From the NCBI GenBank assembly GCA_014904985.1, contig MU129022.1, positions 6,319 through 70,318 of the forward strand: a stretch of DNA of 64,000 nt, read 5' to 3'. Origin of the DNA: Hydnum rufescens UP504 (lineage: Eukaryota; Basidiomycota; Agaricomycetes; Cantharellales; Hydnaceae). Shown here piece by piece: positions 4,100 through 49,273 of this stretch. The notes under the pieces were generated by a model, which was not told the DNA's origin, did no database searches, and worked only from the letters and a program-made list of their open reading frames with translations. Both the position numbers and the translations under genes were made by a program. Positions within the stretch are counted from its first letter, which is position 1; each line of letters starts with the position of its first letter.

Positions 4100-4990
4100 G
4101 CTGAACCTGCTGTGGAAGATAAAAACATCCAGTATCAGAAAATGTGAAATCACACCACTCCCAGCCTTTGGATGATCACATGACCAATTATGAAATTAAT
4201 TACAGCTATGCATGGAAATCGAATTTGTTTTATAACTCCGTCAGTTTTGATTGGAGAGGTATGCCCATATGACTCCTGGAAAGCCACAATTCACACCTTT
4301 CGAACGGTACCAAACACAAGTCAAATGGACCAAAACTGCACTCTCCAGGCCAATTTTACTATCAAAATTTGGGATTTCCAGTAAAAAACAAATTTCTCTC
4401 TCAGTTCGCATCCAATCCCCTTGGAACAACTGTGCCTAGAAAGATATAAAAAATCCGCATCCAACGGTACCAAGAATGTGAAGAACAGATCAAAACTGAA
4501 CTCTACAGAATGATATTACTATCAGAATCAACACCCATCAGTAAAAAATGAATTTCTCTGTCAGTTCACATTGGTTCTGCTCAAACCACCGTGCCCAGAA
4601 AGCTGTTAAAAATACGCATTGAATGATACCAAGAACATCTATTACAGATGCAAATTGCTGTTTCTGCATTGAATCCCATCCCATGCACTTGTCCCCATTA
4701 TCAACCAGCAACAAAACACCTTAACCATTGGACTATGCCCAAATTAATCTCCAAAACCCAGAGATATCCCTTCATTTCACCTCCCAGAGTGCTCCACATG
4801 GTCAGTGACCTCATGCTCCAAGCATTCCACATGCTCAGCAAATTGGTGACATCACCCCTTCCAGGCTGGTCAGACACTTCCATTGATCTCAAAAGGCATG
4901 TCATTTTGATGTTTGTATAGGACCTAATAGGCCTGTGTTCTCTTTGATATCAAATATTGATCAAAAGGGGCCTTTATATTGAACAAGTGC
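4100..4990 (-). repeat. SINE-like repeat with tRNA-type head, copy 1
   Basis: Homologous, in inverted orientation, to 23,740-24,570. Read on the minus strand, a tRNA-like head at about 4,745-4,665 has an A-box-like TAGTCCAATGGTTAAGG and a B-box-like GGGATTCAA, spaced as in a pol III promoter. Downstream come about three degenerate copies of a ~130-bp module containing GGTACCATTCGATG-like and ACTGACAGAGAAATT-like words. Variants of this module also occur inside the solo LTRs at 28,602-29,813 and 45,297-46,663. The sequence before the head (4,760-4,990) is also shared by both copies. The exact ends were not determined. Confidence 0.65.
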
Positions 4991-5148
4991 AGTTTTGACA
5001 TAGTTTTGACATCAATTTGAGATCAAAGTACAGACTTGAGAATTATTCTGTTAGGCTTTATGCAAGTTTGGCCATCTGTCATTCATCCAATCAATCAAAA
5101 ACAATAAACCAACTAAAGAATTTATACATAGGAAAATGAATCATAATC

Positions 5149-8100
5149 CTAGGCTTCTTCTACACTAGCTTGATCCATAGCAACTATCAAACTGGCCTCC
5201 TGTGGCTCGAAGGACTCTTCCAACTCTCCACCCTCTGTATCATCAGAACTTGCATCAGAATCATAGTCTGCAGATGATCTCTCATTCCTTCGAGTAGTCA
5301 GGGGAGGCTGGAGATCTGATATGGCAGTAGCATCAAACTCCATTTCATGTTGAACCTGAGTCCAAACAGCATGGTGTTCTTGCAGTGGCAAAGGCCTGCA
5401 AATATTATCCCAAGAAGGAGCACCAGATGAGATAGGAACCTGGACCATGTCCTTTTCCAAGCTGTCATCCACTCATACAGCTGGTTTGCCTGGTGAAGTG
5501 CAAAATATGATACATCTTCATCTTCAGACCCCATGAATACCTCCATCACATGAGAATACTCCTCACAGAACCAAGTCTGAAGATTTGCATGCTCAGCCTT
5601 GCATCTCTCAAGCTCCTGGCAACAGTTGGCTATCTCTTGTGAGAGCTGGATACCCTCTTTGACTGAAGGGTCACCCAGCCATGGGGGCACAATCCCATCA
5701 GGAAAATCTGCGATATCACCTCTTGAATCCTCCCAAATATCCTGATCCACATCAAGTTGGTAGAGTCCCTCCATTGTGAGCATAGGAGGAACATATGCCC
5801 CCCATCCGAATACCTCCTTTCCCCCGAAGTGCCACCAGTTCCTTCAACTTTGCATTGTATTTCTTCACCGTGGCTTCAATTCCTCCAGACCGACTTTTGA
5901 CTGCTTTCTCAACATGGGCCTTGGTCTTTTGGTCCAATATGCGACTTGAATTTGCATGGTCCAAAGTTGCAAGCTCAAACTTCCTGGCTCTCAGCTTCCT
6001 GAGGAGCTGCTCCCAAAGCACACAAGGTTGAGCTGGACATTAACCCATTTATCCCTCTTGAGCCTGGCTTAATTCAGCAGCAGATGTCCAGTCAGATAAC
6101 CGTAGCTCATCAGTCTTCTTCTTGATGGTACCCTCCAAGCACTGGATAGCCTCCCTCAACAGCTGGACCTTCTCTTGCCACTCTGCCTGTACCAAGTTGC
6201 TTGCTGTTGACTCCCCTTCAACCAAATTTATCCCCTCTGCAATAGCATCCTTCAGATTCTCTTTCTGAGATTCAAGGGTTGCGGTCAGAGATATGATCCT
6301 TTCAATTGCCTGTGCACCTTTGGTCTGAGATTGGCGTGAAACTGGTCGGCTATGGTACTCTCGTTGAGCCTTAAACTGGTCCAGTAAATAACTGATAGAG
6401 CGATTCCCCAGCTTCATTTCAGCCTCCTCCATACGTCTTTGTGCCCGATCAAGTCGGTCCTGGAGCCACTTTCCCATTCCTACTCGCTTTACCCAATCAA
6501 TATGCTCCATCTGAAGGTCAAGAATGAAGAGACGTCGGTGATAACCTGTGACCCGCAGCCCAGGGATAAGTCAGCGAAGTTGGCTCCAAAATCGCTCACA
6601 TCCTTCACCATCTGAGAGACCCCAATGCTCTGATTTACGTGGATGGTACCAGAGCTGGCATGCCCACTGATGACCATATGCATGGAATATAGAAACCCCC
6701 CACTCAAAGCGAGGCAGCCATTCTGGCCTGAACTTCCACTTCTTCAAACTTTGATCCATCTGACAGCCAATATCATACAAGGCTCCAACCCTCCAACGAC
6801 CCGGTAAGTGGTTCAGAAGAGTCTCAAGGAGGGCAAAGACATAGAACTGCTTCTCGCCCGGAGTCCACATGCTTGCTACTGCAAGTGGCAAATCATGATG
6901 GCACAAGAGAGCCATGACCCCAGTGTCTTCAAAAAACTGTGTTGATGCCTTAACCCAATCTCCATCAGCTGCAATGAATGACTCCCTACATGCATCATAT
7001 GCTGAGTTCGGTGCATGGAGACCTGGTTCAACCTTATCAACCTCAGAGGGATCTCCATCAAAATCGTGAGTGTCTGCTTTCCGCTTCTGGCCAGCATGTG
7101 ATGATCTGGCAGGTCGCATCTCTGACATTCTCCTCTCCCACTGCTCAAGGTACCCCCTTGCTAAAACAATTGTCCCAGGGGCAATAATCGGAGGATCGTG
7201 ATTCCCGCTCTCCCCTTCATGTCCAGCTCGTCGATCTCTATCACTGGATCCGTTTGAGTTGGAAGTTTCCATCAATACAAACAATTGCCTGGACTCTGTA
7301 GGTTCCAATACAATTAGATTAGATATCACATCAATGCATCGATAATAGTCTAACTCACTGCATACTAGGAGATTCTGTATAGTTTCCTCCAAAACACAGT
7401 GGACATCGGGACCTCAAGTACGCACTGGGGCGCACTGAATCCACAGATGCAGGGGTGGCAGGAGCAGGACTGGTGGGAGCGGCATCGGGGTGAGGGACAA
7501 GCTTCGGTTGACTCTGAACATTGGGATATTTACGGTCATTCACCGGGGTCTTCTCATCCAACTCATTGTTCAAACACGTCTTATCACCTGCAATTATCTG
7601 GGTGATTTCCGCTCTCACCAAGCGAACAAGCACTTGATAGTATGCAAGTGCATTTGCAAAGCGTCGCCGAAATGAGTCTCCCGTGGCAAATTCATGCCCA
7701 CGAGCCCTGAGATATTCCACCACCGTGGCTGCCCATGCCCTTTCATTGGGTGCCATGTTGAGAAAAAGGGAGGCTACAAATTCCAACATGTCGAGACTGA
7801 CTGCCAAGCTAGGACAAAGAGGGGCGCAAGGAAAAAAGCCGCGCTCAATGAGCTGGATGCCAGCTGTGCGGCACAAGCAGACCTCTAGCACAATGTTCTC
7901 CAATCGCTCCATGGAAACGCAGAGCACCTTAAGGGAGCGAAGCTTCTTGCCACATGTGCACATAGCCGGATTGCCAGGGGTACTGCTAGCAGACTTGGAG
8001 AAACGTTCCCGCATGACTTTCATGAAAGGGTGTAGAAGGCTGGGAAGCACATCGTTGTTCCACCTATATGCCTGAGCATGTTTACGGCGTGCATGGCGAG

Positions 8101-8353
8101 ATCGCCTATCTTTCAGTATCTGTATTTTTGAGGGAGAAGCTTGAACACTCTCATATTGCAGAGCAAGGGGCTCCCAGCTGACATATTCGGATCGCATAAA
8201 AGGAGTATCTGGAGTAGCTGCTGACGACGATAAGTATTCGAGTGAAGGAGAGGGTGAGGTGAGAGATGCAGATGCATGTGGTGCAGGGAGAATTGAAGGT
8301 GTACTGGAGCCTCTCGGCTTTTTGGAGGGTCGTGGACAGCTCAGGCTGGTCAT
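5149..8353 (-). CDS. KDZ (Kyakuja-Dileera-Zisupton) family transposase with CxC cysteine cluster
   Basis: This multi-exon gene encodes a cut-and-paste transposase of the KDZ superfamily. In transcript order it shows a Ser/Pro-rich N-terminus, a cysteine-cluster region with CLCRTAGIQLIERGFFPC, and LRARGHEF typical of CxC domains. The KDZ catalytic region follows: VCIDGNFQLKR, YDIGCQ, FHAYGHQWACQ and SDGEGCERFWS. After that come HRRLFILDLQ and long coiled-coil helices ending in PPWLGDPSVKEGI. Exon blocks are about 8,353-7,400, 7,260-6,571, 6,510-6,049, 6,021-5,783, 5,783-5,473 and 5,472-5,149. I chose the ATG at 8,353 because the longer frame starts without ATG. A frame change near 7,235, just after the first catalytic Asp motif, is not explained by an obvious intron. 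The gene may therefore be slightly broken, or may hold an intron I misplace. A 151-bp minisatellite lies immediately upstream. Confidence 0.88.
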
Positions 8354-8439
8354 TTTGGGCTTTCTGTGCTTTCTGCTCTGAGCGTTTCTCTCTTCTCCTT
8401 TGTGCGGCAACGACGTGTCTGATCATTATGGCAACCTGC

Positions 8440-9510
8440 AGAGGTGGATGAGGCTGTATGACAAGTTCCGATGAGTGGCGGCTGCAGACAAAGCTGTGGC
8501 GTGACACTCAAGAACCTTCGAAGAGGGCGTGAGGCGCTGGATTAGACTGGGAAAAAAAAACAAAGACGATAGGGCGGAGCCGTGCGAGATACGTTCCCAG
8601 GGGAGTGTATGCTGGGTTCTGATGAGTGGCGACTGCAGACAAAGCTGCAGTGTGACACTCAAGAACCGTTGAAGAGGGCGCGAGGTGACCAGATTAGACT
8701 GGAAAAAAAATGACGATGATAGGGTCGGAGCTGTGCGAGATACATTCCCAGGGGACTGTATGCTGGGTTCTGATGAGTGGCGACTGCAGACAAAACTGCA
8801 GTGTGACACTCAAGAACCATTGAAGAGGGCACGAGGTGACCAGATTAGACCAGATTAGACTGGAAAAAAAACGAAGACGATAGGGCGGAGCCATGTGAGA
8901 TACGTTCCCAGGGGACTGTATGCTAGGTTCTGATGAGTGGCGACTGCAGACGAGCTGCAGTGTGACACTCAAGAACCTTTGAGGACGGCGAGGTGACCAG
9001 ATTAGACTGGAAAAGCAAACAAAGACGATAGGATGGAGCTGTGCGAGGTACGTTCCCAGGGGACTGTATGCTGGGTTCTGATGAGTGGTGACTGCAGACG
9101 AAGCTGCAGTGTGACACTCAAGAACCTTTGAGGACGGTGCGAGGTGACCAGATTAGACTGGAAAAAGAAACAAAGACGATAGGACGGAGCCGCGAGAGGT
9201 ACGTTCCCAGGGGACTGTATGCTGGGTTCTGATGAGTGGCAACTGCAGACAAAGCTGCAGTGTGACACTCAAGGACCTTTGAGGACAGCGTGAGGTGACC
9301 AGATTAGACTGGAAAAACAAACAAAGACGATAGGATGGAGTCGCAAGAGGTACGTTCCCAGGGGACTGTATGCTGGGTTCTGATGAGTGGCGACTGCAGA
9401 CGAAGCTGCAGTGTGACACTCAAGAACCTTCGAAGAGGATGTGCAGTAGCCGGATTAGACTGGGTTCTGTTGAGTGGTGACTGCAGGCGAAGCTGCGGTG
9501 TGACACTCAA
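8440..9510. repeat. Minisatellite, ~151-bp period, about 7 units
   Basis: Tandem units carry GGTTCTGATGAGTGG, GACTGCAGACRAAGCTGCAG, GTGTGACACTCAAGAACC, GACCAGATTAGACTGG and CGTTCCCAGGGGACTG in fixed order. The period is about 151 bp from 8,470 to 9,480, and the last unit is truncated. The array lies directly upstream of the KDZ gene, where its promoter or the element's subterminal region would be. Frames through it give repeated peptides, which follow from the repeat and are not evidence of a gene. Confidence 0.9.
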
Positions 9511-15777: not shown

Positions 15778-15786
15778 GCATAAAAC
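15778..15786. repeat. Target-site duplication of PHI-1, left copy
   Basis: GCATAAAAC at 15,778-15,786 recurs exactly at 20,285-20,293. The flanking bases differ on both sides, so the duplication is 9 bp. Confidence 0.88.
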
Positions 15787-16010
15787 CAGCCTGGTCAGCC
15801 AATTATCAGTATCTAATTAGATACTTCAAAGGTTGCATTGATATGGTCTAACTAGATATCAGACCTGGGGGGCCCCCAGGGGCCCCTGCAATTCAATCAA
15901 GGGGCTGGTCAAGCAGCCCAGGGGCCCCTGGGGCCCCTAGCCATGGATTATTTATTTATTTATTATTATTATTATTATTACTACTACTATTATTATATAC
16001 AATGATAGGC
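15787..16010. repeat. PHI-1 left terminus (L end)
   Basis: The TIR is at 15,787-15,865. GC palindromes of the GGGGCCCCCAGGGGCCCC type are at 15,869-15,942, and a TTATTTATT/TATTATTATT microsatellite is at 15,950-16,000. Read outward (minus strand) the microsatellite supplies AATAAA-type words and could act as a poly(A) signal region. It is nearly the same as the right end of PHI-2 (49,030-49,263) in inverse orientation. Confidence 0.8.
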
Positions 16011-16029
16011 TCGCCCAGTGGGGCTCACC

Positions 16030-17700
16030 CATGCGCCCAAGAAGAACAGCCAGAGGCTGCTCTTCTTGCGCGATCACAGCCAAAGAAAAAACCTCACCTT
16101 CATGTGGGGGGGTTTGGCTTGGTTCCCCGGGTTTGGGGTCACGGGGTTCAGCTCGGCGGGTTTGGGGTCGTGGGGTGGGTCGCGGGGTTCGGCTCGCCAG
16201 ATCTTCGTTCGCCGGGTGTTCGTTTGGCGGGTTTGGGTCGGGGGTTCATGCGGATTCGAGTCCAAGATCTAGGGAAAAAAAAACAATATGTTAGACAATA
16301 AAGCTTCGCAAGAAGAGCAGCTTATGCTGCTCTTCTTGCACCACAGGATTAATAAAAAAAGCTCACCTTGTAGTACCACACCCGCCACCGTGGGTGTGGT
16401 ACTTTATATTCCCCGTGTATGGTCGGCCGGGTTTCAATATGTGGGGTCGTGGGGGTTCTCACATTGGTATTCGCTCGCGTGAAAGGTGAAGACCTAATAG
16501 AAAAAAAAAGTCAGTCAGTAAAGAAGTAAAGGCAGCACAAAAAGAGCAGCTTATGCTGCTCTTTTTGCGCCGCTGTATATATTGGGGGGGACTCACCTTA
16601 TATAGAACCACACCCGCTGTAGCGGGTGTGGTTCGTGCTGCCGTTCGCTGTGTGCGTTGTCGTCTGTCGTGGTCGTGCTGGTCGCATTTTTGCAGTTTTC
16701 TTTGTCGTGTTATATGGGAAGGGGGGGTGGGTCCTTTGGCATCTCCCTGGGCTCGCGTTCGGCGGGTTTTCACCTTCAGGACATAGAATAAAATATTATA
16801 TTAGTTAAATATTAAAACCAGTGCAAAAAGAGCAGCTTTCGCTGCTCTTTTTGCGCGGGTGTATGCACTGGGGGGACTCACCTTCTATAGAGAGCCGCAC
16901 TCCTGCCATAGTGGGTGTGCGGCTCATGTGGCCACTCGTTGGGCGCATTGTCGTCTGTTGTGGTCGCGTTGGTCACGTTTCGGTTCACGGGGTTTGGCTT
17001 GCGGGCCTTCGTTTGGCGGCCTTGGAGTCGTGGGGTTTGGCTCGGGTTTGGGGTCGCGGGGTTTGGCCCGGGTTTGGGGTCGCGGGTTTGACTCGGGTTT
17101 GAAGTCGCGGGGTTTGGCTTGCGAGCCTTCGTTCGGCGGCTTTGGAGTCGCGGGGTTTGGGGTCGTGGGGTTTGGCTCGGGTTTGAGGTTGGGGGTTCAC
17201 TGGGGTTCAAGTCCAAGATCTAAAGAAATAAGATGTTGTTAGTTGAAAATTAAAGCAGCACAAGAAGAGCAGCTTACACTGCTCTTCTTGCGCCATAAAC
17301 TTTAAATTTAAAACAAACTCATCTTGTAGTACCACACACCCGCCGCAGCGGGTGTGTGGTTCCTGGGGCCATATGTTGGGCGCGTTCTTGTCTGTTGTGT
17401 GCTCGTTTGACGCGTTGGCGTCTGTCGCATGCTCGTTTGACACGTTGGCATCTTTCGCATGCTCGTTTGACGCGTTGGCGTCTGTCGCATGCTCATTTGA
17501 CGCGTTGTCGTTTGGCGCGTTACCGTTTGCCGTATCGCCGTTTGGGCCCTTGTCATTTCGCGGGGTTTTGTCGGACACCATGATCTGGAAGAATAAATAA
17601 GCGGTTAGTAAAAGTATTCAAAGCAGCGCAAAAAGAGCAGCTTTCACTGCTCTTTTTGCGCCGTTGTATCTACTGATAAGGAAACTCACCTTGTGACCAC
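16030..17700 (-). repeat. PHI-1 left array: six hairpin-intron units transcribed leftward
   Basis: Intron hairpins (AGAAGAGCAGC or AAAAAGAGCAGC stems) lie at about 17,627-17,661, 17,260-17,292, 16,822-16,855, 16,537-16,570, 16,308-16,339 and 16,036-16,070. Each is preceded on the minus strand by a 5' splice site, usually AGGTGAGT. Each is followed by a branch site (ACTAACC, ACTAACA, ACTGAC, TCTAAC) and usually TTTAG, TTCCAG, ATTAG or CCCTAG. Exon hairpins (CACACCCGC-type) sit just upstream of the 5' sites near 17,700, 17,335, 16,905, 16,607 and 16,377. The 5' site near 17,325 is ATGAGT and one 3' site near 16,790 is mutated. Loop sequences of the intron hairpins on the sense strand are GAAA, GTAA, GAAA, ATAA, ATAA and CTCT. 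A 30-bp tandem repeat (CGTTTGACGCGTTGGCGTCT on plus) lies inside one exon at 17,402-17,520. Confidence 0.85.
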
Positions 17701-17769
17701 ACACCTGCGACGGCAGGTGTGTGGTCATTTGCTTGCCTTTCCAGGTGGGTGTTGTGGTAGTTGTAAGAA

Positions 17770-18130
17770 AGACACAGACTCAACGCCGGCAATTGCCGGC
17801 ATGCAAAGAGCGCCCAAGTGCCGGCACTACAAGCACAATACATATTAATAGGAAGTATCTAGGAAAAAATAAAGACTATATAGCAACTATTTTTGCAAAA
17901 AAAAAGAAAAGGATGATGATAATAAGCAAGAGCCCAATGTAGGCATGTCATGCCTACATTGGGCTCTTGCTTATTATCATCATCCTTTTCTTTTTTTTTG
18001 CAAAAATAGTTGCTATATAGTCTTTATTTTTTCCTAGATACTTCCTATGAATATGTATTGTGCTTGTAGTGCTGGCACTTGGGCGCTCTTTGCATGCCAG
18101 CAATTGCCAGAGTTGAGTTGCGTCTCTTAC
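17770..18130. repeat. PHI-1 core palindrome
   Basis: A perfect inverted repeat runs 17,851-17,947 against 17,949-18,045 about the single base 17,948 (AGGCATG-T-CATGCCT). The symmetry continues with a few mismatches to about 17,770 and 18,130, including GCAATTGCCGGCATGCAAAG on the left and its diverged mirror on the right. It contains TTTTTGCAAAAATAG and a TATATAG word on each side. It divides the two arrays, so it is either a shared leader or promoter region, or the centre of a very long hairpin. Confidence 0.93.
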
Positions 18131-18179
18131 CCACCAAACAGGCCACCACCTAGAAACGCAAGCCAATGACCACGCACCC

Positions 18180-19930
18180 ACAGCAGCAGGTGTGGTCATT
18201 CAAGGTAAGTTTTTCTTTTTACTGTAGTAGATACAATGGCGCAAAAAGAGCAGCGAAAGCTGCTCTTTTTGTGCTACTTTGAATTTCTTTACTGACCACC
18301 TTTTAATTAATTCTAGGTCATGGCATAGCATCAAATGAAACCCCCCCAAACGAGACCCGATTGGCCAGGGGCCCCAGCGGCAACATGCGAAACGAAACCG
18401 AGCCAAACGAAAACACGAGAGGTGGCCATGCACCGCCACAGTGGCCACGCGAACCGCACACCTGCTACGGCAGGTGTGTTGTTCTATATAAGATAAGTGC
18501 ACCCCCTACGGCGCAAAAAGAGCAGCAAATGCTGCTCTTTTTGCGCTGGCTTTAATTTTTTTTAACTAATACATCCTTTATTCTAGACTGCCAGAAATGA
18601 AGACCGGTGAAATGAGTCCCCCCCGAAACGATAACCCGCCCACAAAGCGAAGGCCACCAATGACGACACGCCAAACGAAGACACGAGACGATGCCACAAC
18701 CCGTATGAACCACACACCCGCTATGGGGGGTGTGTGGTTCTATAGAAGGTAAGTACCATTGGGTACCCGCAGCGGCGCAAAAAGAGCAGCACTGCTACTC
18801 TTTTTGCGCTGGTTTGAACTTTTAACTAACACATTTATTATTCTAGGTTATCGCCTGACATGAAGACTCGCCAAACGAACCCCCCCCCGCGTGGAAATGA
18901 CAACGCCCCCGCCAAACGAAAACCCCAAATACGACCGGCCAAGGAACACCCACCAGACCAACCACGGAACCCCCAGACGAACCACACCCACTTCGGTGGG
19001 TGTGTGGCAATCTCAAGGCGAGTACCCCCCCCCCCACCTTTATGTATGCCAAGGGAGCAGCATACGCTGCTCCTTTGGCGTAGCTTTCTTTTTCTTTTTT
19101 ACTAACGTATCATTTATTATCTTAGGTTGTCATCTGAACCCATAACCCCCACCGACTCCTAATCAAGACCCACGACCCCGCCGCGAGAATGGCAACCCAC
19201 CCGCGAAACGAAACCCGCGAGAACAGAAACCCGAGAAACGGACCACCCGCCCAAATAATGACGTACGCAAAACCCAACGCCCGACCGCAGTACAACCGAG
19301 TACCACACACCCACTTTGGTGACTACAAGGTATTTTTTTTTTGAATTTCTATACGTACAACGACGCAAAAGGAGCAGCGCAAGCTGCTCCTTTTGCGTGC
19401 CTTCGAATTTTTTTACTAACGTATACTATTATTGTAGGATCCAAACCGGAGCGCCTGAAACAACGACCCACCCCAACAGCAACCTGCCCATCCAAATGGC
19501 CCGCCCAATGGTGAAGGCCACGCCCCTGGTACCACACACCCGCTTGGGCAGGTGTGTGGTGCTACTAGTTATTTTTTTTTTGAATTTCTATATGTACAGC
19601 GACGCAAAAGGAGCAGCGCAAGCTGCTCCTTTTGCCTTCGAATTTTTTTACCAATGTATGCTATTATTGTAGGATCCAAGCCGGAGCGCCCAAAACGACG
19701 ACCCACCCCGACAGCAACCCGCCCGTCCAAATGACCCACTCAACGGTGAAGGCCACGCCCCCGGTACCACACACCCGCCCAAGCGGGTGTATGGTGCTAC
19801 TAGATAGGTTTTTTTTTTTTTTAAATTTCTATGGACGGTGCCACACACCCACCTAAGCGGGTGTGTGGTAAGTAGTTTTTTTTTCTTGGATTTCTACAGA
19901 CGGTACCACACCCCAGTGGGTGTGGTGAAT
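18180..19930 (+). repeat. PHI-1 right array: six hairpin-intron units transcribed rightward
   Basis: Predicted introns are 18,205-18,316 (GTAAGT...TTCTAG), one ending at 18,596 (5' site ATAAGT, mutated), 18,749-18,846 (GTAAGT...TTCTAG), 19,018-19,135 (GCGAGT...CTTAG, a GC-AG type), 19,330-19,437 (GTATTT...TGTAG) and one ending near 19,672 with its 5' site lost. Intron hairpins are at 18,240-18,273, 18,511-18,546, 18,775-18,809, 19,048-19,080, 19,362-19,399 and 19,601-19,635. Their stems change in pairs: AAAAAGAG with CTCTTTTT, AAGGGAG with CTCCTTT, AAAAGGAG with CTCCTTTT. Exons of ~150-195 nt are A/C-rich and T-poor. The last two exon hairpins (about 19,830-19,870 and 19,898-19,930) come in rapid succession without introns. 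Confidence 0.88.
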
Positions 19931-20284
19931 TTTTAAATAAATAAATAAATAATAAACAACTCAGTAAGAATGAAACACAGAACTGCTGAATGCAGTGATA
20001 ATAAATAAATAAGTAATTATAAATGGAACATATTATCCCTGATAAGCGCATATGCCCCACTGTGCAAGTCTGAGATTAGGTGACTGAATAAAATGCCAAA
20101 CCCAATATATTGAGGTTCTGTGGCCATTCTAAGTCCCACACAGGGGCCCCTGGGGGCCCCTGCCTGAATCACGGAAATCAGGTTAGCCAGCCCCAGGGGC
20201 CCCAGCATCAAAACCTCTAGTTAGACTATATAAATGCAAGGCTCATAATATCTAACTAGACCTACATTTGTGGCTGACTGTGCT
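19931..20284. repeat. PHI-1 right terminus (R end)
   Basis: It begins with AAATAAATAAATAAATAATAAAC, a run of AATAAA words that would end the rightward transcript. A ~200-bp stretch follows that contains GGAACATATTATCCCTGATAAGC and is shared (inverted) with 43,200-43,270. GC palindromes (CAGGGGCCCCTGGGGGCCCC) are at 20,141-20,215, and the TIR is at 20,216-20,284. The target duplication GCATAAAAC follows at 20,285-20,293. Confidence 0.8.
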
Positions 20285-20456
20285 GCATAAAACACCTGTC
20301 AAGGGTACCCCGCTCAGTTTCAACTTGAATATCTGGCCAACCGTTGGGGGCACAATGAACTCGGACATTCGCCAGATCGCGAGGTGGGCAATTGCTGATC
20401 TCAGCAGCAGCAGTGTTTCTTCAAATTTGGAGAGTTTTGCATGTACAAAAGTTTGA

Positions 20457-23739: not shown

Positions 23740-24570
23740 CATTGATCTATGTAGTCTAAGTCCCCATGTTGATATTATTTGAGATCAAAAGACCATGTCT
23801 GTCACCTGAGGTCATGGCATTGAAATTATTTGAGATCAAAGGATTTTGATGCCTCATAGGCAATTAATTTGATGCGGTTCGACATGTCTTTTGAGATCAG
23901 TCCAAGTGGCTGACCGAGGTGGAGTTCTTGGAGATTAATTTGTTTGTAGTCCAGTGGTTAAGATGTTTTGGTTGCTGATTGATAATGGAGGCAAGTGCAT
24001 AGGATGGGATTCAATTCAGAAACAACAGTTTGCATCCATAATAGACATTCTTGGTATCATTCAATGTAGATTTCTAACAGCTTTCTGGGTGCAGTGGTTC
24101 CAAGCAGATCAGATGCGAACTGACAGAGAAATTTGTAAAATACTAATGGGTGTTGATTCTGATAATAATATTGTTCTATAGAGCTCAGTTTTGATCTGTT
24201 CTTCATGCGCTTAGCACCATTGGATGCAGAGTTTTTATATCTTTCTAGGCGTGGTCATTTTGAGAGGATTGGATGTGAACTGACAGAGAAATTCATTTTT
24301 TACTGGAAATTCCGGATTTTGATAGTAATATTGGTTTGGAGAGTGCAGTTTTGGTCTGTTCAACTTGTGTTTGGTACCATTAGAAAGGTGTGAATCGTGG
24401 CTTTCCAAGAGTTATATGGGCGTATCTCTCCAATCAAAACTGGTGGAGTAATCGAATGAATTCTGTTTTCATGCATAGTTGTAATTAATTTTGTAATAGG
24501 TCACATGATCATTCCATAGGCTGGGATCAATAGATATTTGCATTTTCTGATACTGGATGTTTTTATCTTC
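23740..24570 (+). repeat. SINE-like repeat with tRNA-type head, copy 2
   Basis: A tRNA-like head at 23,944-24,018 has A box TAGTCCAGTGGTTAAGAT and B box GGGATTCAATTC, about 70 nt overall. It is followed by three diverged ~130-bp modules (GGTATCATTCAATG, AGCACCATTGGATG, GGTACCATTAGAAAG with ACTGACAGAGAAATT). The copy is inverted relative to 4,100-4,990. The ~200 bp before the head are also shared by the two copies, so the unit may be longer than a classical SINE. Confidence 0.65.
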
Positions 24571-30412: not shown

Positions 30413-32259
30413 ACATGATCTGTGTACAGAGACAAGAGGGATCTAGTAAGATTGAATCTATGAGGTGTATAGTTCTCTGAACCAGATATTTGGATCAGAA
30501 TGCTGATCAGGTGCCCCCACACATCATATACTGCCAAAAGTGATCCATTTGTCCTGAAATTTTGTATGCAGAAGGGGGACATACATGGGAGGATCATATT
30601 AAAAAATGGTGGCTCTAGCTGGTCTGTGTGGTGAGTAATTGCTGGTGGCAAGAAAAAATCAGGTTGAACTCTAGAAGTGGAATTCAGTGCCTGTCCTTGT
30701 GTCTGCAGATAGCCACAAATAATACAAGCACAACAGACATATTCCCAATGCATTCTGGGCAATATTGCATGAGATATGCTTGTTTTGAGATCAGCATCAT
30801 TTCTGAACTTTATTTCACAATTTTCTGAAAGTGCCAACATTTTTGCAAACAGCTGTATACTCAGAGCTGTAGTCTTGAGTAGAAGCAGAAATCCTGAGAG
30901 ACCAAAGCTAAGGTCTCTGGAATTTACCCTAGGGCTACTTATACATGGTAAGGATATACTATGGGGGAGTGATCATTGAAGCCAGAGGTGGTTACAATGG
31001 AGACAGGAACAGGAACAGGAACAGGGGGTGGATGGAGGAGTGGAAGCAAACAGGAAGCATATGGAAATTTAAGAGACAGGAACAAGCCAGAAACAAACCA
31101 GAGGCAAACCAGAAATACCTGGATAAACAGACAAACTCTGACAGGCATGAATTATCACAGGAGCTTCCTGGAGTTTTGGCACATTGTCTTATGGCCAGGG
31201 CTGGGGATACCACCCCATACCATTAATTCTGCCCATCAGATCCTCCAACACAACATGAACTCAAAACATCACTGTAAGTGTGGAGTTGTTAGGGGTTGTT
31301 GGTATTGCAAGGAAGAGATTATGTAATCAATGTCAAGTATGAAGGAGTAGCCCCTAATATGATTGATGAGAGGGTTTGTGGCATGAGAATTATGTAAGGT
31401 CACAAAGGACAAGTATGTGAGAGAAGTGGTGCAAGAGGAACTGATATCTCAGAGAGACTTAATATGATGATGATGATGATCTAATCCATTATCATGCTTG
31501 AAGTGCATAAGCACTTATATGAGGAGAGTGATAAGAAGGACAATCATTGACATACTGCATATTCTTGATCTTCTGGGGATTGAGAATACAAGAGCATCTA
31601 CTCATATACTAGTAGATCAAGGAGAGATTGGTAATGGAATTATTAAGAAGGCTGAATAATGGTAAGTAGTCTGGGCAGCAAGGAGGAGAGGTCACATGAT
31701 GAGGTTATGAGTACAACTCATAACAGGAGTCATGAGTTAGATTAGCAAAAACAATGAAAATCATAACTTTCAGAATATATCTGGAAATATCCCCATAATT
31801 AGGCATACTATAGTAAACTCAGATACTGCTTGCCAATATTCAGATCAAATCTCATGAGGAAGGAAATACACATACCCAAATCAGGAATTTTCTGTTTTTG
31901 AGCATTGCTGGGGCATACAGAGCCTGGCACTGTAATAGGTACATATCTAAAGACATGGGCCCCAACTGTTATGTAGAAGCCCATCAAATAATTTTTCAAG
32001 CTGTCAACATGGGCTCACATAGAACTTGTTCATTTTGGCTCCCCCCCCCCTCCCCCTTTATTTTATTTATTAATTGAATTCAAATTATATTTATGTTTAT
32101 TTACATTGTCTCCATTTCTGTTGTGCATGTTAGAGGTTGGCCTCACACCTTTTTGATCTGCGCAATTGCCAGCATTGCATGCAGTGGAACTTGCCGGCTC
32201 TCAAATGAATGATTGTTACAATCCGATAATGCAACACTGATGAGCCAGAAACTCACTAC
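30413..32259. other. No recognisable gene; minor repeats
   Basis: The frame at 30,406-30,840 (minus) has no family. A GGAACA simple repeat lies at 31,004-31,025. A tract at 31,060-31,150 resembles 24,600-24,690 (AAACAGACAAACTCTGACA). A GATGATGATGATGATC tract is at 31,466-31,482 and a C-run at 32,040-32,056. The region is AT-rich from 31,330 to 32,000. Confidence 0.45.
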
Positions 32260-32394
32260 CACATCCCAGGGAGGCTGGGTATAGGAATAGGGTGAGTTTG
32301 TCTTTAATATGTGCATTTGAGCAAAGAGCAGCTGAGGCTGCTCTTTTTGCCTTCCTTTGAATTTTTCTAACCAGTCACTATTTCATGCTATAAG
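32260..32394 (+). repeat. Relic of a single PHI hairpin-intron unit
   Basis: It has a short remnant of the exon hairpin (CCCAGGGAGGCTGGG, 32,262-32,280), a 5' splice site GTGAGT at 32,292, an intron hairpin GCAAAGAGCAGC/GCTGCTCTTTTTGC (32,321-32,350), a branch CTAAC at 32,367 and ATAAG near 32,393. All parts are in the order and spacing of full PHI units, but no other unit or terminus adjoins. It is an orphan or the last trace of an old element. Confidence 0.75.
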
Positions 32395-33416
32395 CCACCA
32401 GAGAGCTCTCATTTGATCATGGTCACAGCCCCCCCTCTTTTTCTCTGGTCTTGGCCCAACATAGTGCAAAGGCAGCCCAGGCAGTGCTGGTCTAAAGGGG
32501 TTCTGGTAAGTGCTCTGCGCAATGGCGGGACTGATGACAATGGTTGTGAAAGCCAGAACAAGCCCCGGTCTGTAGTGCTCTACAAGTGCAACATCTAGCT
32601 TTACCTATTGCACTGCTCATAGTACATCTAGAAATACCATGATTACTCTGGAGCTCAGGCACACCTGACTTGGTGTAAATGGACTCCTGGGTGCCCTCCA
32701 TCCTTTCAGAGTACCTGTAGGGGTGTCACCTGTTTTTTTGTCCTCTTTTTTCCTCATTTCTAGCTACATATATATAATGCACCCACAAGGGAGCTAGAAG
32801 ATTGAATGAAAAATGAGCAAGTTCTGAGGGAGACTTGTTGAGGACATTGTTGACAGTGAGGACATGTGATAACTCAACACCAAATGTATTGACCCAGCGG
32901 CCAGCAACGCCGATGCCCCGCGGAAATATCCCCCTAGATATTGGAAAAATGGGTGCCTGGCCGGCTGGGTAGCCGTACTCAACTCCGACCTCGTCATTTC
33001 CGCGATTCGGAACCAAATCTGCATGTTGGAGCTGCTGGCAAGTTCCATTCTTTAGAGCCCCGATTACATCAGTATTGCGGTACCATTATCGAAGCGCTTG
33101 GTGAAGTGCTTTGCCAGTGATTTTTCTTTTCCACCTGTGTGCATAGCATATTCACCAGGCCGTACATGTCACCTTGGACCACGCTGACAAATGGCATATC
33201 CCGATTGTTTCAACTCATGGTCAGGTTGTTCTGAAACCGCATGTGAATCTTTGGCTTACGTTCTTAGTTAGATGGCTTCCTTTAAATGGTTGGCTTGGAG
33301 CAGCCAAGCTTCACCCGCTCTTGGAACAGTGTGTGTACTGAATCTACGTAAGCCCGCGGTGAAGCTAATGGGGTTTGCTGCGCAGTGCGCGTCTCGATTT
33401 TTTTGAATCACGACCA
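32395..33416. other. Intergenic; upstream of the APH-like gene
   Basis: No gene recognised. From about 33,050 the base composition becomes more even, as in the adjoining host-type genes. The promoter and any 5' exon of the APH-like gene should lie here. Confidence 0.4.
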
Positions 33417-35660: not shown

Positions 35661-36580
35661 CTTCCGCATCTCTTTCGTCCCGGGGTTGAGTTCTCCACAA
35701 CCGACGTCAACGCAATGAGGCCCGCAGTGGGACTATACCCGCCAACTGGTACCCCTCTGCCAGTCAGTCCACGGCCAATTAGCATTATGCTCACGTAACA
35801 TATAAATTTCGTTTTCACCTTAGCCATCTCAAATCGGTGGATCTCCCTCGCAGCTTCGTCTCTAACTTCAATGCCCCCGTCGATCCCTCCCACCCCTCCC
35901 AGAAATCTACCAGATGCCTCCCATCAAGGACTCCCTCAGTCGCCGGGCAATCAACATCCACCTCCCTCCATTTGGCAACTACAAATAGTGCACCCGGTTC
36001 GAAGAAAACTCCCGGATCAAACCAATACGAATCTGATCAGGAGAGGAATTGAGACCGACAGCACCTGGAATTTGCGCGGGAAGCTACAAATATGTACAGG
36101 GGCCCCATGCCACTAGACGAATTCTTGGAAAGCTATCTGAATGTGCTCTCTGCAGCCTGACATATGGGGATCACTGTTCGAAGATACTGTGGTGGTGGTG
36201 GAGCTCTTTCTTATATACCGCTTCGGGCTGCCTACAGGTAGCTATAAGGCACCTAGGGCAGTCCTTGTACATGGGTACATGGTTAAATATTCTTTGGTGT
36301 CTCCTCCTTTCTCATTATGTAGTCATTGGACTCGTAGTGTTTCCGTCCCCACTGCCTTTTCGGCGGCCTCTTCGGGGTCGCCCTATCGACTTGGTATCGA
36401 TTTCCGGGGGTAGTTTTTGGCATGGCATATATATTTACAGATGAATAAGGTGTGAGCATGGGAGTTTCGGTTGGTCTATGTTGTGCTTAGCTTTGTGAAT
36501 GCTGCCGTGGCCTCAACGAATTGGGCCAATCGTTCTATAGAGTCGTAGACGTAATCCTGATACATCACTTGTCTGTAATA
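35661..36580. other. Weak open frames only
   Basis: Open frames at 35,837-36,052 and 35,871-36,444 look partly protein-like (Pro/Ser-rich) but lack recognisable domains or clear splicing. They may be remnants of a host gene. Confidence 0.35.
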
Positions 36581-36903
36581 CTGTAGCCGTCTTAAGTCTA
36601 ACAAACCTGCGGCTGTGTGACGTGACACTCAAGCAAGTTAACACAACAATGGGGGGTCGGATTGGGCGTGACACCTAGTTAAGTAACAATATGTGACCCA
36701 GTGGGTCGGAAAGGACTGGGTCATTTCTACTCTGAATCTGGTGGAAATTCCCTCCCCCCCCGCTCCGCCCCACCCCCTGGTCATCATGTGACACCCCAAT
36801 ATTGTTAACAACAACCCCCCAAATGTGACGTTATTGTTAGCTTTGGTAACACTCGGAGCCTGGGTGTGACGTGACAGGTTTGTTAGACTTAAGACGGCTA
36901 CAG
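36581..36903. mobile_element. MITE of Tc1/mariner type (323 bp, TA duplication)
   Basis: It has 29-bp perfect terminal inverted repeats starting CTGTAGCCGTCTTAAGTC and is flanked by TA on both sides (36,579-36,580 and 36,904-36,905). Internal words such as GTGACGTGACA, GTGTGACAC and GTTAACAACAA recur in inverted pairs. There is no coding capacity. The TA target fits the mariner superfamily. Confidence 0.88.
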
Positions 36904-37049
36904 TACCCCGTAGTAGGGGATGTATCCCTCTCGGCTAGCTGTGATGTACCAACTCATTACATAATTACAATTATTCTATCGACAGCAGGTGGAATATCCA
37001 CTATATCCGGGTGCAGGGAATATACTGGATAATACAGGTACACGTACCT

Positions 37050-37760
37050 GTGCAAAGTTCCCCACATCATGGGGGCTTTGCATGCATATATAGCGTGCAG
37101 GTCTTCATTTCATCCTGGGACTCGGTCGGGCGAGATCTTGGGCGGTTGCGCACATCCGTATTATGCAGGGGGCTTCATGTTCTTGTCGGGCGGATTTTGG
37201 CGCCGGGGGGGGCAGCCTAGAATAACAAATAATACGTTACATTAGTAAAATCAAAGCGAGGTAGCACCAAAAGAGCAGCTGGTGCTGCTCTTTTGGTGCC
37301 GTGGTACAACTAGTAGTGAAGAACTTACGAGGTACCCACACCCGCCGCAGCAGGTGTGGTACCGTGCTTTGCCTGTCGTTGCGTCCGTTGCGGGCGTTCG
37401 GGAGCTGGCGTCTCGCGCACTTCAGTGGCGACACGTCGGTATTTCGCGCGGGCCTTTTTCGTGTTCTCGTCGGGTTGGTTTTCGCGTACAGGGATGGATC
37501 TAGAATAACGAATAACATGTTACTAAAAAAAACCATAGGCAGCACCAAAAGAGCAGCAGTTGCTGCTCTTTTGGTGCCATTGTACCTGCTTTGGTTGAGA
37601 ACTCACCTAATAGTGCCACACCCGCCGCAGCGGGTGTGGTGCTGTGTGTTTTATCTGTCGTTGCGTGGGGGCTGCGCATATATGCCGGGTCTTGCACGGA
37701 TTTCGGTCCGCGTTAATTTCCGGGTGGCCGTCGCGGGTTTTGTATCGTCGTTGTTCGGGT
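37050..37760 (-). repeat. PHI-M left array: two complete units, leftward
   Basis: Intron hairpins GCACCAAAAGAGCAGC/GCTGCTCTTTTGGTGC are at 37,542-37,577 and 37,264-37,299. On the minus strand the first intron has AGGTGAGT, a branch GTAAC and TTATTCTAG. The second runs from a GTAAGT site near 37,330 to TTATTCTAG near 37,213. Exon hairpins at 37,616-37,639 and 37,336-37,359 both close with a TGCG loop on the minus strand. A further, unlike hairpin (GCAAAGTTCCCC/GGGGGCTTTGC) lies at 37,051-37,083. Confidence 0.82.
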
Positions 37761-37769
37761 CGAAGGAAG

Positions 37770-38211
37770 CTCATATGGATAGATAATAAATACCTAGATA
37801 AAAAACAAGTACCAAATAATAAATATCTGTCTAATCCAAGGGAGGAAATGAGTGATAATCTGTGGGATTGTACTAAGGCACCATGTGCAAAGCAGAATTA
37901 GGCGACTTCCATGCATTATGATTGGCCCAAATTTGAGTATGTTCGTGTAATATATGTATATTGCATGGGCGATGACGCGAATTGGACGAATGGGCCAACT
38001 CGTGTCATCGCCCATGCAATTATACATATATTACACGAACATACTCAAATTTGGGCCAATCATAATGCATGGAAGTCGCCTAATTCTGCTTTGCACATGG
38101 TGCCTTAGTACAATCCCACAGATTATCACTCATTTCCTCCCTTGGATTAGACAGATATTTATTATTTGGTACTTGTTTTTTATCTAGGTATTTATTATCT
38201 ATCCATATGAG
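37770..38211. repeat. PHI-M core palindrome
   Basis: Arms 37,770-37,985 and 37,995-38,211 are nearly identical in inverse orientation (about 216 bp each, very few differences), with a ~9-base centre. Each arm has ATTGGCCC (inverted CCAAT box) about 30 nt from ATATATGTATAT on the same strand, pointing toward the centre. The sequence GATAATAAATACCTAGATAAAA and its mirror end the arms. It is clearly related to the PHI-2 core. Confidence 0.93.
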
Positions 38212-40575
38212 TTTTGTACTGCCCCTAATTAGGCGCTCCTTGGAGCCCGGAAACTCCCGGCGTTGAGTGTCAGGATCTTCAGATTTACTCAACGAGGCGC
38301 CCGAAGCAAGCACCACACACTCACCACACTGTGCCACACACCCGCCGGGGCGGGTGTGTGGCACTGTTAGGTGAGTTTTTTTCTTCATAGGGTGTACCAC
38401 GACGCCAAAAGAGCAGCCCAGGCTGCTCCTTTGGCGTTGGTTCTCTTATTTTTTTTTAACTAACATATTCATTATTCTAGATTTCCTCCCTCCGCGAACC
38501 CTCCATCTGAAGAATGCACCAACGAAGCCCGGGCGAAATACGGGCGCCCGCAGCCACGCCAGACCCCGATATTCGACTATCAATTGTCCGCCGCCGATAC
38601 GTGGCCTCAAATACGGTGCCACACACCCGCTTCGGCGGGTGTGTGGCAATATTAGCTGAGTTGTTTTCTATTACGGGGTGTACGACGACGCCAAAAGAGC
38701 AGCAGCAGCAGCTCTTTTGGCGTTGCTTGTGTTCTTTTTTTTACTAACACATTTGTTATTCTAGTTCCCTTCTCCCCCCGCGAAACCCCCGCCGAATTAT
38801 GCACAGACAAGGCCCAGGCGAAATACGGGGGCACGCGCAGCCACCCATGACCCCGAACCTTGCGTGTCCCCAACCCCTACAACAACGAATCAAGTACGGC
38901 GCCACACCCGCTTCGGCGGGTGTGTGGCAATATTGGGTAAGTCTTTTTCTTTATGGGGTATGCTACGACGCCAAAAGAGCAGCACCAGCTGCTCCTTTGG
39001 TGTTGCTTATGTTATTTTTTTTTACTGACGTATTACTTAGTCTAGTTGTTTCTCCCTCCGGGAAACTGACCCAAAGAACGCACAGACAACGCCCACCGCG
39101 AAATCCGGAGCGCACAGCCGCCCAAGACCTCAACTCTCGAGTATCCGCAACGTATACGAAGACAAAACAAATACGCCGCCACACACTCGCTTCGGCGGGT
39201 GTGGCAATATTAGGTGTGTTTGTTTTAAATTACGGGGTGTACCACGACGCCAAAAGAGCAGCCCCGGCTGCTCTTTTGGCGTTACCTTGGGTTTTTTTTT
39301 TCGTTACTGACGTATTATTATTCTAGGTGCCTCTATTGCTCGAGACGAATACGAACGCACGCAGCCACCCGGATCCCGAACTTACACGACAACGAACCAA
39401 ATACAGGACCACACCCGCTGCGGCGGGTGTGGTAATATTAGGTTAGTTTTCGACTATCGTATGTACTACGGCGCCAAAAGAGCAGCACTGGCGCTCTTTT
39501 GGCGCTGCTTTCTTTTTTTCTTTTTCTCTTGCTAATGTATTCGCTATTCTAGGTACCTTCTCCCTGCATCAAGCCCCGCCCGCAGCCACGCCAGACGAGG
39601 CCCGAGGTGTGATACCGGCGTACGCAGCCACCCGAAAGCCCAGCCCCCAAACGCCCCAACCGTCTACAACAACACATTAGATACGGCGCCACACCCGCTT
39701 CGGCGGGTGTGGTACTGTGAGGTGAGGTTTATTTATGTACGGGGTGTTCTACGGCGCCAAAAGAGCAGCATCAGCTACTCTTTTGGTGCCACCTGTGTCT
39801 TTTTTTTATATTACTAATGTACTCATTATTTTGGATCTCTTATCTCTGCGCGAAACTCGACCCGAAGCCAGCACGGACGACCCCCAAGGCGAAATACGTA
39901 CGTACCCAGCCCCCGAACACCCGCAACATACACAACAATACGGTACCACGCACCCGCTCCGGTGGGTTTGCGGTACCACTAGGTGAGTCTCCCTTTACGG
40001 GGTGTACGACGACGCCAAAAGAGCAGCACTAGCTGCTCTTTTGGCGTTGCTTGTGTTCTTTTTTTTTTGTTTTACTAATGTATTTGTCATTGTAGGCCCT
40101 TTCTCCCTCTGCGCGACCCCACCCAGAGAATGCACAAGGCCCGGGGCGAAATACGGGCGCGCAGCCGCCCAAGACCCGAACCCTCGACTATCCGCAAGGT
40201 ATACGACAACACCTTAAATACGGTGCCACACACCCGCTTCGGCGGGTGTGTGGCAATATTATGTGAGTTTTTTTTTCATTCGCAGTGTACGACGACGCCA
40301 AAAGAGCAGCCCCGGCTGCTCTTTTGGCGTTGCTTCTGTTATTTTTTTTTAAAACTAACCTACTCATCATTTAGGGTTTCGCCCTCCGCGAAACCCATCC
40401 GAAGAGTGCACTGACAAGACCCAGGCGAAATACGGGCGCACGCGCAGCCATGCAAGACCCCAACGCCCGACTATCCGCAACCAATACAACGACGCCTCAA
40501 ATACGGTGCCACACCCGCCGAAGCGGGTGTGTGGCAATATTAGGGGAGTTTTTTTATTATGCTGTGTACGACGCA
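38212..40575 (+). repeat. PHI-M right array: nine exon hairpins, eight introns
   Basis: Introns read as 38,371-38,480, 38,655-38,764 (5' site changed to CTGAGT), 38,937-39,045, 39,214-39,326, 39,442-39,552, 39,722-39,833 (3' site TTG), 39,983-40,095 and 40,263-40,374. They are 109-113 nt, very uniform. Branch sites are TAACTAAC, TACTAAC, TACTGAC, GCTAAT, TACTAAT or AACTAAC, 10-18 nt before TTCTAG, TGTAG or TTTAG. Intron hairpins CGCCAAAAGAGCAGC/GCTGCTCTTTTGGCG start near 38,401, 38,687, 38,967, 39,246, 39,470, 39,752, 40,011 and 40,293. Exon hairpins start near 38,334, 38,619, 38,902, 39,179, 39,409, 39,689, 39,946, 40,226 and 40,509. Seven of the nine close C-UNCG-G (five TTCG, one TGCG, one TCCG). 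Confidence 0.9.
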
Positions 40576-40746
40576 GACTCCTTCCCAGTCGTGTGGTGGC
40601 TTTCTTCGCGCTTGGTCTCCACCTATAGGAGTTAAGTCCTAAATCTGCAAATTTGGATCTGTGTTACCTAATGTATTATGAAATAATAATGGAAATTAAG
40701 TAAAACCTGATCATCTATGCAGAATAACAATGTGAGAAAGCCACCA

Positions 40747-43054: not shown

Positions 43055-43064
43055 AATGTCACCA
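43055..43064. repeat. Target-site duplication of PHI-2, left copy
   Basis: AATGTCACCA recurs at 49,264-49,273. Nine or ten bases depending on the exact element end. Confidence 0.85.
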
Positions 43065-49263: not shown

Positions 49264-49273
49264 AATGTCACCA

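Follow-up and report, generated by a model that had tools for sequence, protein, structure and literature searches.

A foldback-like DNA transposon family of Hydnum rufescens with KDZ-type ends and outward arrays of predicted introns

Element 1, its limits and its arrays

The window analysed here is a stretch of 64,000 nucleotides from contig MU129022.1 of Hydnum rufescens UP504. It carries an element, hereafter element 1, in which two arrays head away from a core palindrome on opposite strands, with six intron hairpins on each side and exon hairpins in between, just as a preliminary description of this DNA had stated. The same description had bounded the element by a 9-bp target duplication. 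The repeat GCATAAAAC is indeed present on either side, but it is best read as a duplication of 8 bp, a length that fits seven of the eight elements checked (L047 gave none, and single elements are also readable as 9 or 10). We thus set the limits of element 1 at 15787–20285, with CAG..CTG ends; its termini are CAGCCTGGTCAGCCA. The features are listed below by their positions in the window.

15779–15786, no strand: left target-site duplication, CATAAAAC, 8 bp
15787–20285, no strand: whole element 1 (apparently non-autonomous, foldback-like, KDZ-type ends), ends CAG..CTG
15787–15856, plus: left terminal inverted repeat, starting CAGCCTGGTCAGCCAATT, 70 nt, 70% complementary to the right end
15951–15964, minus: two AATAAA words near the left end, resembling poly(A) signals
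16038–16097, minus: unit furthest out on the left; its donor at 16097 reads GTGAGG, its intron palindrome spans 16068–16038, branch-acceptor combination absent by the rule applied
16269–16366, minus: predicted intron; donor GTGAGC, palindrome 16339–16308, branch CTAAC, acceptor TAG
16494–16596, minus: predicted intron; donor GTGAGT, palindrome 16573–16532, branch CTGAC, acceptor TAG
16823–16881, minus: unit; donor GTGAGT, palindrome 16854–16823, branch-acceptor combination absent by the rule applied
17220–17322, minus: unit; palindrome 17293–17258, branch TTAAT, acceptor TAG, donor decayed to ATGAGT (17322–17317) as judged from its neighbours
17329–17360, minus: one of the exon palindromes, CCACACACCCGC..GCGGGTGTGTGG, serving as reference for a family with 12 listed members in element 1
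17585–17689, minus: predicted intron; donor GTGAGT, palindrome 17661–17626, branch CTAAC, acceptor CAG
17778–18118, no strand: core palindrome; arms 17778–17947 and 17949–18118, 170 nt, 97% complementary, 1 nt between
18205–18316, plus: predicted intron; donor GTAAGT, palindrome 18239–18274, branch CTGAC, acceptor TAG
18493–18586, plus: unit; palindrome 18511–18546, branch TTAAT, acceptor TAG, donor decayed to ATAAGT (18493–18498) as judged from its neighbours
18749–18846, plus: predicted intron; donor GTAAGT, palindrome 18775–18809, branch TTAAC, acceptor TAG
19018–19125, plus: predicted intron; donor GCGAGT, palindrome 19045–19082, branch CTAAC, acceptor TAG
19330–19437, plus: unit; weak donor GTATTT (19330), palindrome 19363–19398, branch CTAAC, acceptor TAG
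19604–19635, plus: sixth right-arm intron palindrome; intact donor absent, branch-acceptor combination absent by the rule applied
19936–20092, plus: five AATAAA words near the right end, resembling poly(A) signals
20216–20285, minus: right terminal inverted repeat, its inward reading starting CAGCACAGTCAGCCAC
20286–20293, no strand: right target-site duplication, CATAAAAC, 8 bp

As regards the foldback features, element 1 has long inverted arms with internal repeats, a strict terminal repeat of only about 70 nt at 70%, and a middle that consists of the palindromic core, with no transposase gene. The core lacks the central part that is kept in nine other aligned cores. No protein gene was found in element 1, where stop-free internal frames reach at most 149 aa, and none of the listed KDZ matches lies in it. 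The earlier statement that each unit combines all splice signals holds as an enrichment across the 29 elements described below; for element 1 it is an overstatement, as a full GTRAGT donor is present in only 5 of the 12 units, branch plus acceptor in 9, and donor, branch and acceptor together in 4. Element 1 is a partly decayed copy.

A dispersed family with KDZ-type ends

Element 1 is one member of a large family in the 63 Mb genome. The exact termini CAGCCTGGTCAGCCAMYT occur 117 times (control 0), a core search gave at least 47 matches (best 40 of 130 candidates scored), and palindromes with at most two mismatches number 5,338 of the intron type and 4,387 of the exon type, with 0 in the control. 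They are near-perfect at two scales, with exon and intron stems mostly of 12–20 bp and core arms of 170–327 bp. The 8-bp duplications, the common ends and the many dispersed copies support the original idea that the element is mobile. A comparison of the intron palindrome with a viral collection gave 0 matches. Two further members lie in the window:

37100–40576, no strand: element 2, outer limits placed by eye; core at 37986, spanning 37767–38214 (194-nt arms, 99%); two intron palindromes left and eight right; terminal repeats were looked for and none found
43063–49263, no strand: element 3; duplication AATGTCAC at 43055–43062 and 49264–49271; core 47346–47975; eight intron palindromes left and four right, with other DNA inside the left arm

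For family-wide counts 33 sources were read and 29 elements kept, the loci being the best-scoring matches to two queries and not a random sample. Left out were L014, L016, L022, L028 (core centre undetected), L049 (long N run) and L056 (irregular core); a palindrome around position 1947 of the window was also set aside, being unrelated; overlapping loci (such as L005, L006, L015, L024–L026, L029, L030, L032, L033 and L035) and L001–L004 were excluded from the counts. One of the 29, L007, has zero intron hairpins. The total is 219 intron hairpins, of which 212 have sufficient flank for the splice-signal count and 208 for the count by unit groups.

The ends of the family resemble those of KDZ (Kyakuja-Dileera-Zisupton) transposons. 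Two KDZ loci, on C31 and C19 (93.5% identity over 5,870 columns), both end at CAGCCTGGTCAGCCACTT, which is matched in 18 of 18 letters by the right end of element 3 and in 17 of 18 by the left end of element 1. In all, 15–18 terminal letters are identical to these loci, with one end located per locus; their left ends and duplications were looked for and not found. The 8-bp duplication is a second likeness, as Zisupton is described as making 8-bp duplications on insertion (PMC12730594). Because the termini match KDZ transposons of the same genome, the family is likely a non-autonomous, foldback-like one, for whose movement a KDZ transposase would act in trans. The KDZ domain has at least 154 matches in the genome (best 150 of 584 candidates scored). 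A candidate autonomous copy on C56, with a KDZ gene between two facing ends, was rejected, since these ends come from two separate elements.

As a difference from KDZ transposons, no transposase was found in element 1; moreover, of five KDZ loci checked for its palindromes, four showed none, and neither did the KDZ region of the window. This difference bears on the possibility, taken by analogy from Galileo, that the palindromes are transposase binding sites kept by selection for dyad symmetry. Galileo offers a precedent, for its tandem repeats are reported to contain sites for the THAP domain of the transposase (PMC3688188), and thousands of copies with perfect dyads would suit such a role. 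On the other hand, palindromes of the two kinds number 0 and 0 in each of the 5.8-kb KDZ stretches of C31 and C19, in L057, in L058 and at 4862–9500 of the window, which makes this idea improbable in our view, though these KDZ elements may not be the exact partner. A further KDZ locus, L059, has 5 and 4 palindromes in its outer part at 6.6–8.6 kb, and these probably belong to a neighbouring array.

Oriented splice signals in the arrays

Signals for splicing are strongly enriched beside the intron hairpins and point outward. A donor matching at least five of six letters, together with branch and acceptor, accompanies 181 of 212 intron palindromes in the sense direction, as compared with 26 in antisense and 21 in shuffled sequence; full donors give 123, 2 and 11.7, respectively. 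The relaxed donor by itself separates the three sets poorly, being present in 199 sense, 131 antisense and 103 shuffled cases. T content is 44–53% beside intron hairpins and 16% in the 100 nt upstream of exon hairpins. On these grounds the arrays are predicted to be spliced, so that this part of the preliminary description stands as a prediction from signals, while an intronless genomic copy, sought for one junction, was not found (78 rows, none spanning the joint; best 40 of 169 candidates scored).

The right arm of element 2 contains a public gene model (289 aa) with five introns. Its intron 39214–39326 is an exact match to a predicted one, and 39442–39552 has the predicted acceptor and a homologous ATATTAG/GT donor, where the prediction rule had chosen 39459. 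Two further introns of the model share one site each with the prediction, namely an acceptor (38764) and a donor (39722).

It might be argued that the family is purely a DNA-level repeat, in which duplication spread the palindromes and units, and the splice signals are left over from an ancestral gene whose transcription has ceased. The decay of signals in element 1 and the outcome of the intronless-copy search for one junction fit this view, and so do six young copies, in which variable sites outside CpG amount to 1/70 in donors, 1/55 in branches, 0/36 in acceptors and 25/1355 in linkers. Splice sites are thus not clearly slower than linkers and show no clear purifying selection outside CpG (three of these copies end early at the right, and of the 12 donors chosen in this set, three that read GTGTGT are probably inside exon hairpins). 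However, when one unit per similarity group is taken (57 groups; mean of 50 draws), signals are found in 44.6 in sense and in 3.3 in antisense. Such persistence implies that the lineage producing new copies kept its signals, and we hold the relic explanation to be unlikely.

Upkeep of the palindromes and the nature of the family

The preliminary description went further and suggested that the element may carry a system of spliced, structured non-coding RNA; on such a reading, the hairpins of exons and introns would be under selection for their RNA structure. The oriented splice signals and the position of hairpins on both sides of the donor would be in accord with this. Single intron stems show 72 G-U and 42 A-C pairs, an unexplained excess in the direction expected of RNA-level selection. 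Yet the consensus stems (inner 12 pairs, groups of at least three) contain 394 Watson-Crick pairs out of 402, with 2 G-U and 6 A-C; exon stems are unbiased (86 G-U, 83 A-C); loops are in some cases exactly inverted between orthologous copies; and Rfam gives 0 matches at gathering score within the window. By the G-U versus A-C test, RNA-level selection finds no support in exon stems or in the consensus stems, whether of exons or of introns. We therefore do not retain the structured-RNA claim, whose chance of being right we consider rather small.

Loop inversion at no more than one difference was seen in 6 of 40 exon groups and in 0 of 34 intron groups, one likely intron case with a 3-nt loop standing apart. 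Among orthologous exon pairs it was found in 27 of 322 (37 skipped), which is not above random exon pairs (14.9%), and thus the reading as inversion is based on the exact cases; hairpins with palindromic loops or loops other than 4 nt were skipped in this test. Core arms are, by medians over the 29 elements, 98.4% alike within an element and 83.3% between elements, which favours upkeep at the DNA level. Against this, 13 of the 29 have a core arm that some other element matches at least as closely as the element's own second arm does, and the best match of a core arm elsewhere has a median of 97.9%, as in young copies. The Watson-Crick consensus stems, the lack of a G-U excess in exons and the inverted loops together point to upkeep at the DNA level, probably by template switching. 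Arm homogenization and inversion of the spacer are both reported outcomes of this process (PMC8604942), which is also reported to create and maintain hairpins (PMC8794818). The palindromes would resemble known quasipalindrome products (PMC8604942) in both respects, and differ from them in that the events are inferred at many sites of one transposon family.

Two other explanations fare worse. The T-poor exons leave long open frames, the longest being 213 and 152 codons in two of the arms, where shuffling gave averages of 152 and 114 and maxima of 299 and 287, and the 289-aa model would have them encode a repetitive protein. Introners and introner-like elements are many similar spliceosomal introns with stem-loops, and thousands of similar intron-type hairpins could recall an invasion in which the mobile unit is the intron plus its hairpin. 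Here, in contrast, the repeat includes the exon, and the array moves in its entirety as a single element. At the loci read, introns sit in homologous exon-intron units inside arrays, and the one locus read out of four candidates for a solitary hairpin proved to be another array, which has a core-like palindrome. We find such an invasion very unlikely. Protein-coding exons, despite the public model, are rejected as barely credible because 7 of 39 indels in exon linkers have a length divisible by 3 and one element has exons whose lengths are out of phase, and protein searches with array sequence returned nothing but this contig's own model; the indels and the short frames of element 1 agree with the initial view that it has no protein gene.

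What is directly established is a multi-copy family whose members have 8-bp duplications and common termini, splice signals with a consistent orientation, and palindromes that are close to perfect. The most plausible explanation, and in our opinion a probable one, is a non-autonomous, foldback-like DNA transposon, likely moved by a KDZ transposase supplied in trans, whose palindromic core would act as a divergent promoter for the two outward exon-intron arrays, the transcripts being predicted to be spliced into non-coding RNA. Template switching during replication between inverted-repeat arms would re-equalise the arms and occasionally flip a loop, a mechanism more likely than selection for RNA pairing, and copies would decay after insertion, apparently mainly at CpG sites. 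The supply of transposase, the core promoter, transcription, splicing and the way of keeping the palindromes are all deduced from sequence.

A search of titles and abstract openings did not find this plan described. Still, the earlier remark that no known transposon has it goes too far, for foldback elements (FB, Tetris, Galileo-like) have much of it: Tetris is described as having inverted arms composed of internal repeats and 8–10 bp duplications, as lacking a conserved open frame, and as probably mobilised in trans (PMC4079207), and Galileo with similar foldback features (PMC3688188). In contrast to these, the centre of the present family is itself a near-perfect palindrome, its divergent units carry donor, branch and acceptor signals, and its ends match KDZ instead of the Mutator group (PMC4079207) or the P group (PMC3688188). 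The family thus joins a foldback plan with ends of the KDZ type.

Should the arrays be spliced, a transposon with no coding function would have multiplied a great many introns needed by no protein, and would offer a system in which to ask why introns are present in transposons and whether being spliced protects transposons from silencing. A more speculative and rather doubtful scenario is that the family has seeded the genome with about five thousand palindrome-bearing spliceosomal introns and makes two-way, multi-exon non-coding decoys from a palindromic promoter, efficient splicing protecting it from silencing triggered by poorly spliced transposon RNA while template switching keeps the palindromes perfect. 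With thousands of palindromes, DNA-level hairpin maintenance becomes separable from RNA-level selection, which bears on every claim of conserved RNA structure drawn from perfect stems.

Anatomy and genome-wide copies of the family

Element 1 is one copy of a large family, as indicated by whole-genome counts of its stems, palindromes and termini. In sequence analysis of the window this repeat has defined limits and a core, i.e. a central palindrome, from which two arrays of exon-intron units run outward. The preliminary description had proposed two such arrays of six, and indeed six intron-type palindromes (short hairpins inside predicted introns; exon-type ones lie inside predicted exons) are present on each side of the core, on opposite strands and reading outward. 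AATAAA words lie close to both ends.

Features in the window
15787-20285: element 1, core palindrome 17778-18118
37767-38214: core of element 2, whose ends were not found in the window analysis
43063-49263: element 3, both ends and target duplication present
45300-46660: other DNA lying between intron palindromes in element 3's left arm
36580-36910: short MITE-like inverted-repeat element adjoining element 2, ACTGTAGCCGTCTTAAGTCTAACAAACCTG at either end
31900-32400: decayed single exon-intron unit (GGTGAGT, intron palindrome 32325-32344, CTAAC) preceded by core-like sequence; probably what is left of a fourth element
4862-9500: KDZ (Kyakuja-Dileera-Zisupton) transposon region with a CxC1-like domain; KDZ domain in frame 6571-7413
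8465-9438: 151-bp tandem array inside the KDZ region, repeat unit containing CTGCAGACAAAGCTGCAG
23921, minus strand: further KDZ-like terminus, CACCTCGGTCAGCCACTTGGACTGATCTCAAAAG; a related pattern has 151 genome matches (up to 2 mismatches)
4172-4716 and 23967-24512: repeat copies in inverted orientation, 83-86% complementary
52421-52696 and 61152-61427: 276-nt direct repeat, 97% identity
50283-51029: open frame resembling the DDE superfamily; its PF03184 hit (E 0.00054) falls short of the curated cut-off

Hydnum rufescens UP504 is an ectomycorrhizal basidiomycete whose genome is reported in PMC7550596; the assembly comprises 63.2 Mb, and the contig holding the window 200,919 bases. One stem variant occurs genome-wide in 534 exact copies and the same pattern read backwards in none, while 5,338 intron-type and 4,387 exon-type palindromes were found with at most 2 mismatches (control 0 in both cases), together with 117 exact copies of one form of terminus (control 0). 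The core of one family copy (L056) is interrupted by numerous scattered insertions and deletions, which may reflect faulty assembly of the palindrome.

Protein-coding exons were ruled out by the lengths of exon-linker indels, which are multiples of 3 in 7/39 cases among six copies compared, and by exon lengths that are out of phase in one element; the earlier claim that no protein gene is present was thus upheld.

Mobility, KDZ-type ends and known systems

That the family is mobile, as had been proposed, is well supported by its many genome copies, common termini and terminal direct repeats, the latter present in seven of the eight elements examined (the exception is locus L047). The end repeats are real, but the duplication length of 9 bp first assigned to element 1 is better taken as 8 bp: individual elements would allow 8, 9 or 10 bp, and an 8-bp duplication with CA..TG ends is compatible with all seven. 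Zisupton, a KDZ group, is described as creating 8-bp duplications (PMC12730594).

Two loci with a KDZ domain, on contigs C31 and C19, are 93.5% identical over 5,870 columns and both terminate at CAGCCTGGTCAGCCACTT; their opposite ends and duplications were looked for and not found. The right end of element 3 has the same 18 letters, the left end of element 1 has 17 of them, and a similar end, CAGGCTGGTCAGACACTT, lies at 4862 in the window's KDZ region. From these matching ends we infer that a KDZ transposase probably moves the family's elements in trans. Element 1 is not classed as a KDZ transposon itself, because a transposase was not found within it.

Like foldback elements (PMC4079207; PMC3688188), the family described here carries internal repeats in its inverted arms and lacks a gene; it differs in its palindromic centre, the splice signals in its units and its KDZ-type ends. 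The suggestion that the plan was undescribed needs qualifying by this resemblance, although the full plan did not appear in any title or abstract opening in a literature search that covered a minority of subscription journals. The content is unusual and testable.

Splice signals and predicted transcripts

We scored 212 intron palindromes with sufficient flank, from 29 elements, for an upstream donor matching GTRAGT at 5 or more of 6 positions and, downstream, a branch site followed by an acceptor, using the antisense reading and dinucleotide shuffles as controls. All signals occurred together in 181 of 212 sense readings, as against 26 antisense and 21 shuffled. The relaxed donor alone discriminates poorly (199 sense, 131 antisense, 103 shuffled), whereas full GTRAGT donors number 123, 2 and 11.7, and branch plus acceptor 191, 49 and 43, respectively. 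With one unit drawn per similarity group (57 groups, mean of 50 draws), both signals were found in 44.6 sense versus 3.3 antisense cases. Median spacings are 29 nt from donor to hairpin, 18 from hairpin to branch and 21 from branch to acceptor; T content is 44-53% beside intron hairpins and 16% in the 100 nt preceding exon hairpins.

A public gene model of 289 residues ('hypothetical protein BS47DRAFT_96900'), itself a prediction and not RNA evidence, maps exactly onto the right arm of element 2. Among its five introns, 39214-39326 is identical to a predicted one, 39442-39552 combines the predicted acceptor with a donor in the homologous position, and of two others one agrees with a predicted acceptor and the other with a predicted donor. 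The arrays are thus predicted, from sequence, to be transcribed and spliced, with predicted junctions such as 18205/18316 and 18749/18846 in element 1 and 40263/40374 in element 2. When ten cores were aligned, a central part with AT-rich stretches was kept in nine, with GCCAAT there in eight, and was missing from element 1; it is compatible with a putative divergent promoter. The window's cores at 37986 and 47656 are examples that retain this centre. Our boldest idea is that the predicted transcripts may protect the element from splicing-coupled silencing, by analogy with what is reportedly known from Cryptococcus.

Upkeep of the hairpin stems

Stems kept at the RNA level should tolerate G-U, and not A-C, in the transcribed orientation. 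Exon stems contain 86 G-U and 83 A-C among 3,250 pairs, while intron stems, with 72 and 42 among 3,506, lean to the RNA level. Consensus stems (unit groups with at least 3 members, inner 12 pairs) are almost free of G-U: 174 Watson-Crick, 1 G-U and 2 A-C in 15 intron groups, and 220, 1 and 4 in 19 exon groups. Moreover, a six-copy alignment revealed orthologous loops inverted in two hairpins (CTGAAG versus CTTCAG, CCGAAG versus CTTCGG), and loop inversion with at most 1 difference was seen in 6/40 exon and 0/34 intron groups. Pairwise, inverted loops (27/322 orthologous exon pairs) show no excess over random pairs (14.9%), because the pool contains both orientations, and the argument is therefore carried by the exact cases. 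The structured-RNA reading put forward initially is not supported, although individual intron stems lean towards it.

Template switching between inverted repeats is described as leading to arm homogenization and spacer inversion (PMC8604942), and also as able to create and maintain hairpins (PMC8794818); it is the probable means of DNA-level upkeep here, where it would homogenize the arms and at times invert the loops. Between the two core arms of one element the median similarity is 98.4%, and between arms of different elements 83.3% (29 elements), although in 13 of the 29 some other element's core arm is as similar as, or more similar than, the element's own second arm. Copies appear to decay after insertion, since differences among young copies fall mostly at CpG sites: 228/1721 linker sites are variable overall and 25/1355 outside CpG, a pattern suggestive of CpG methylation.
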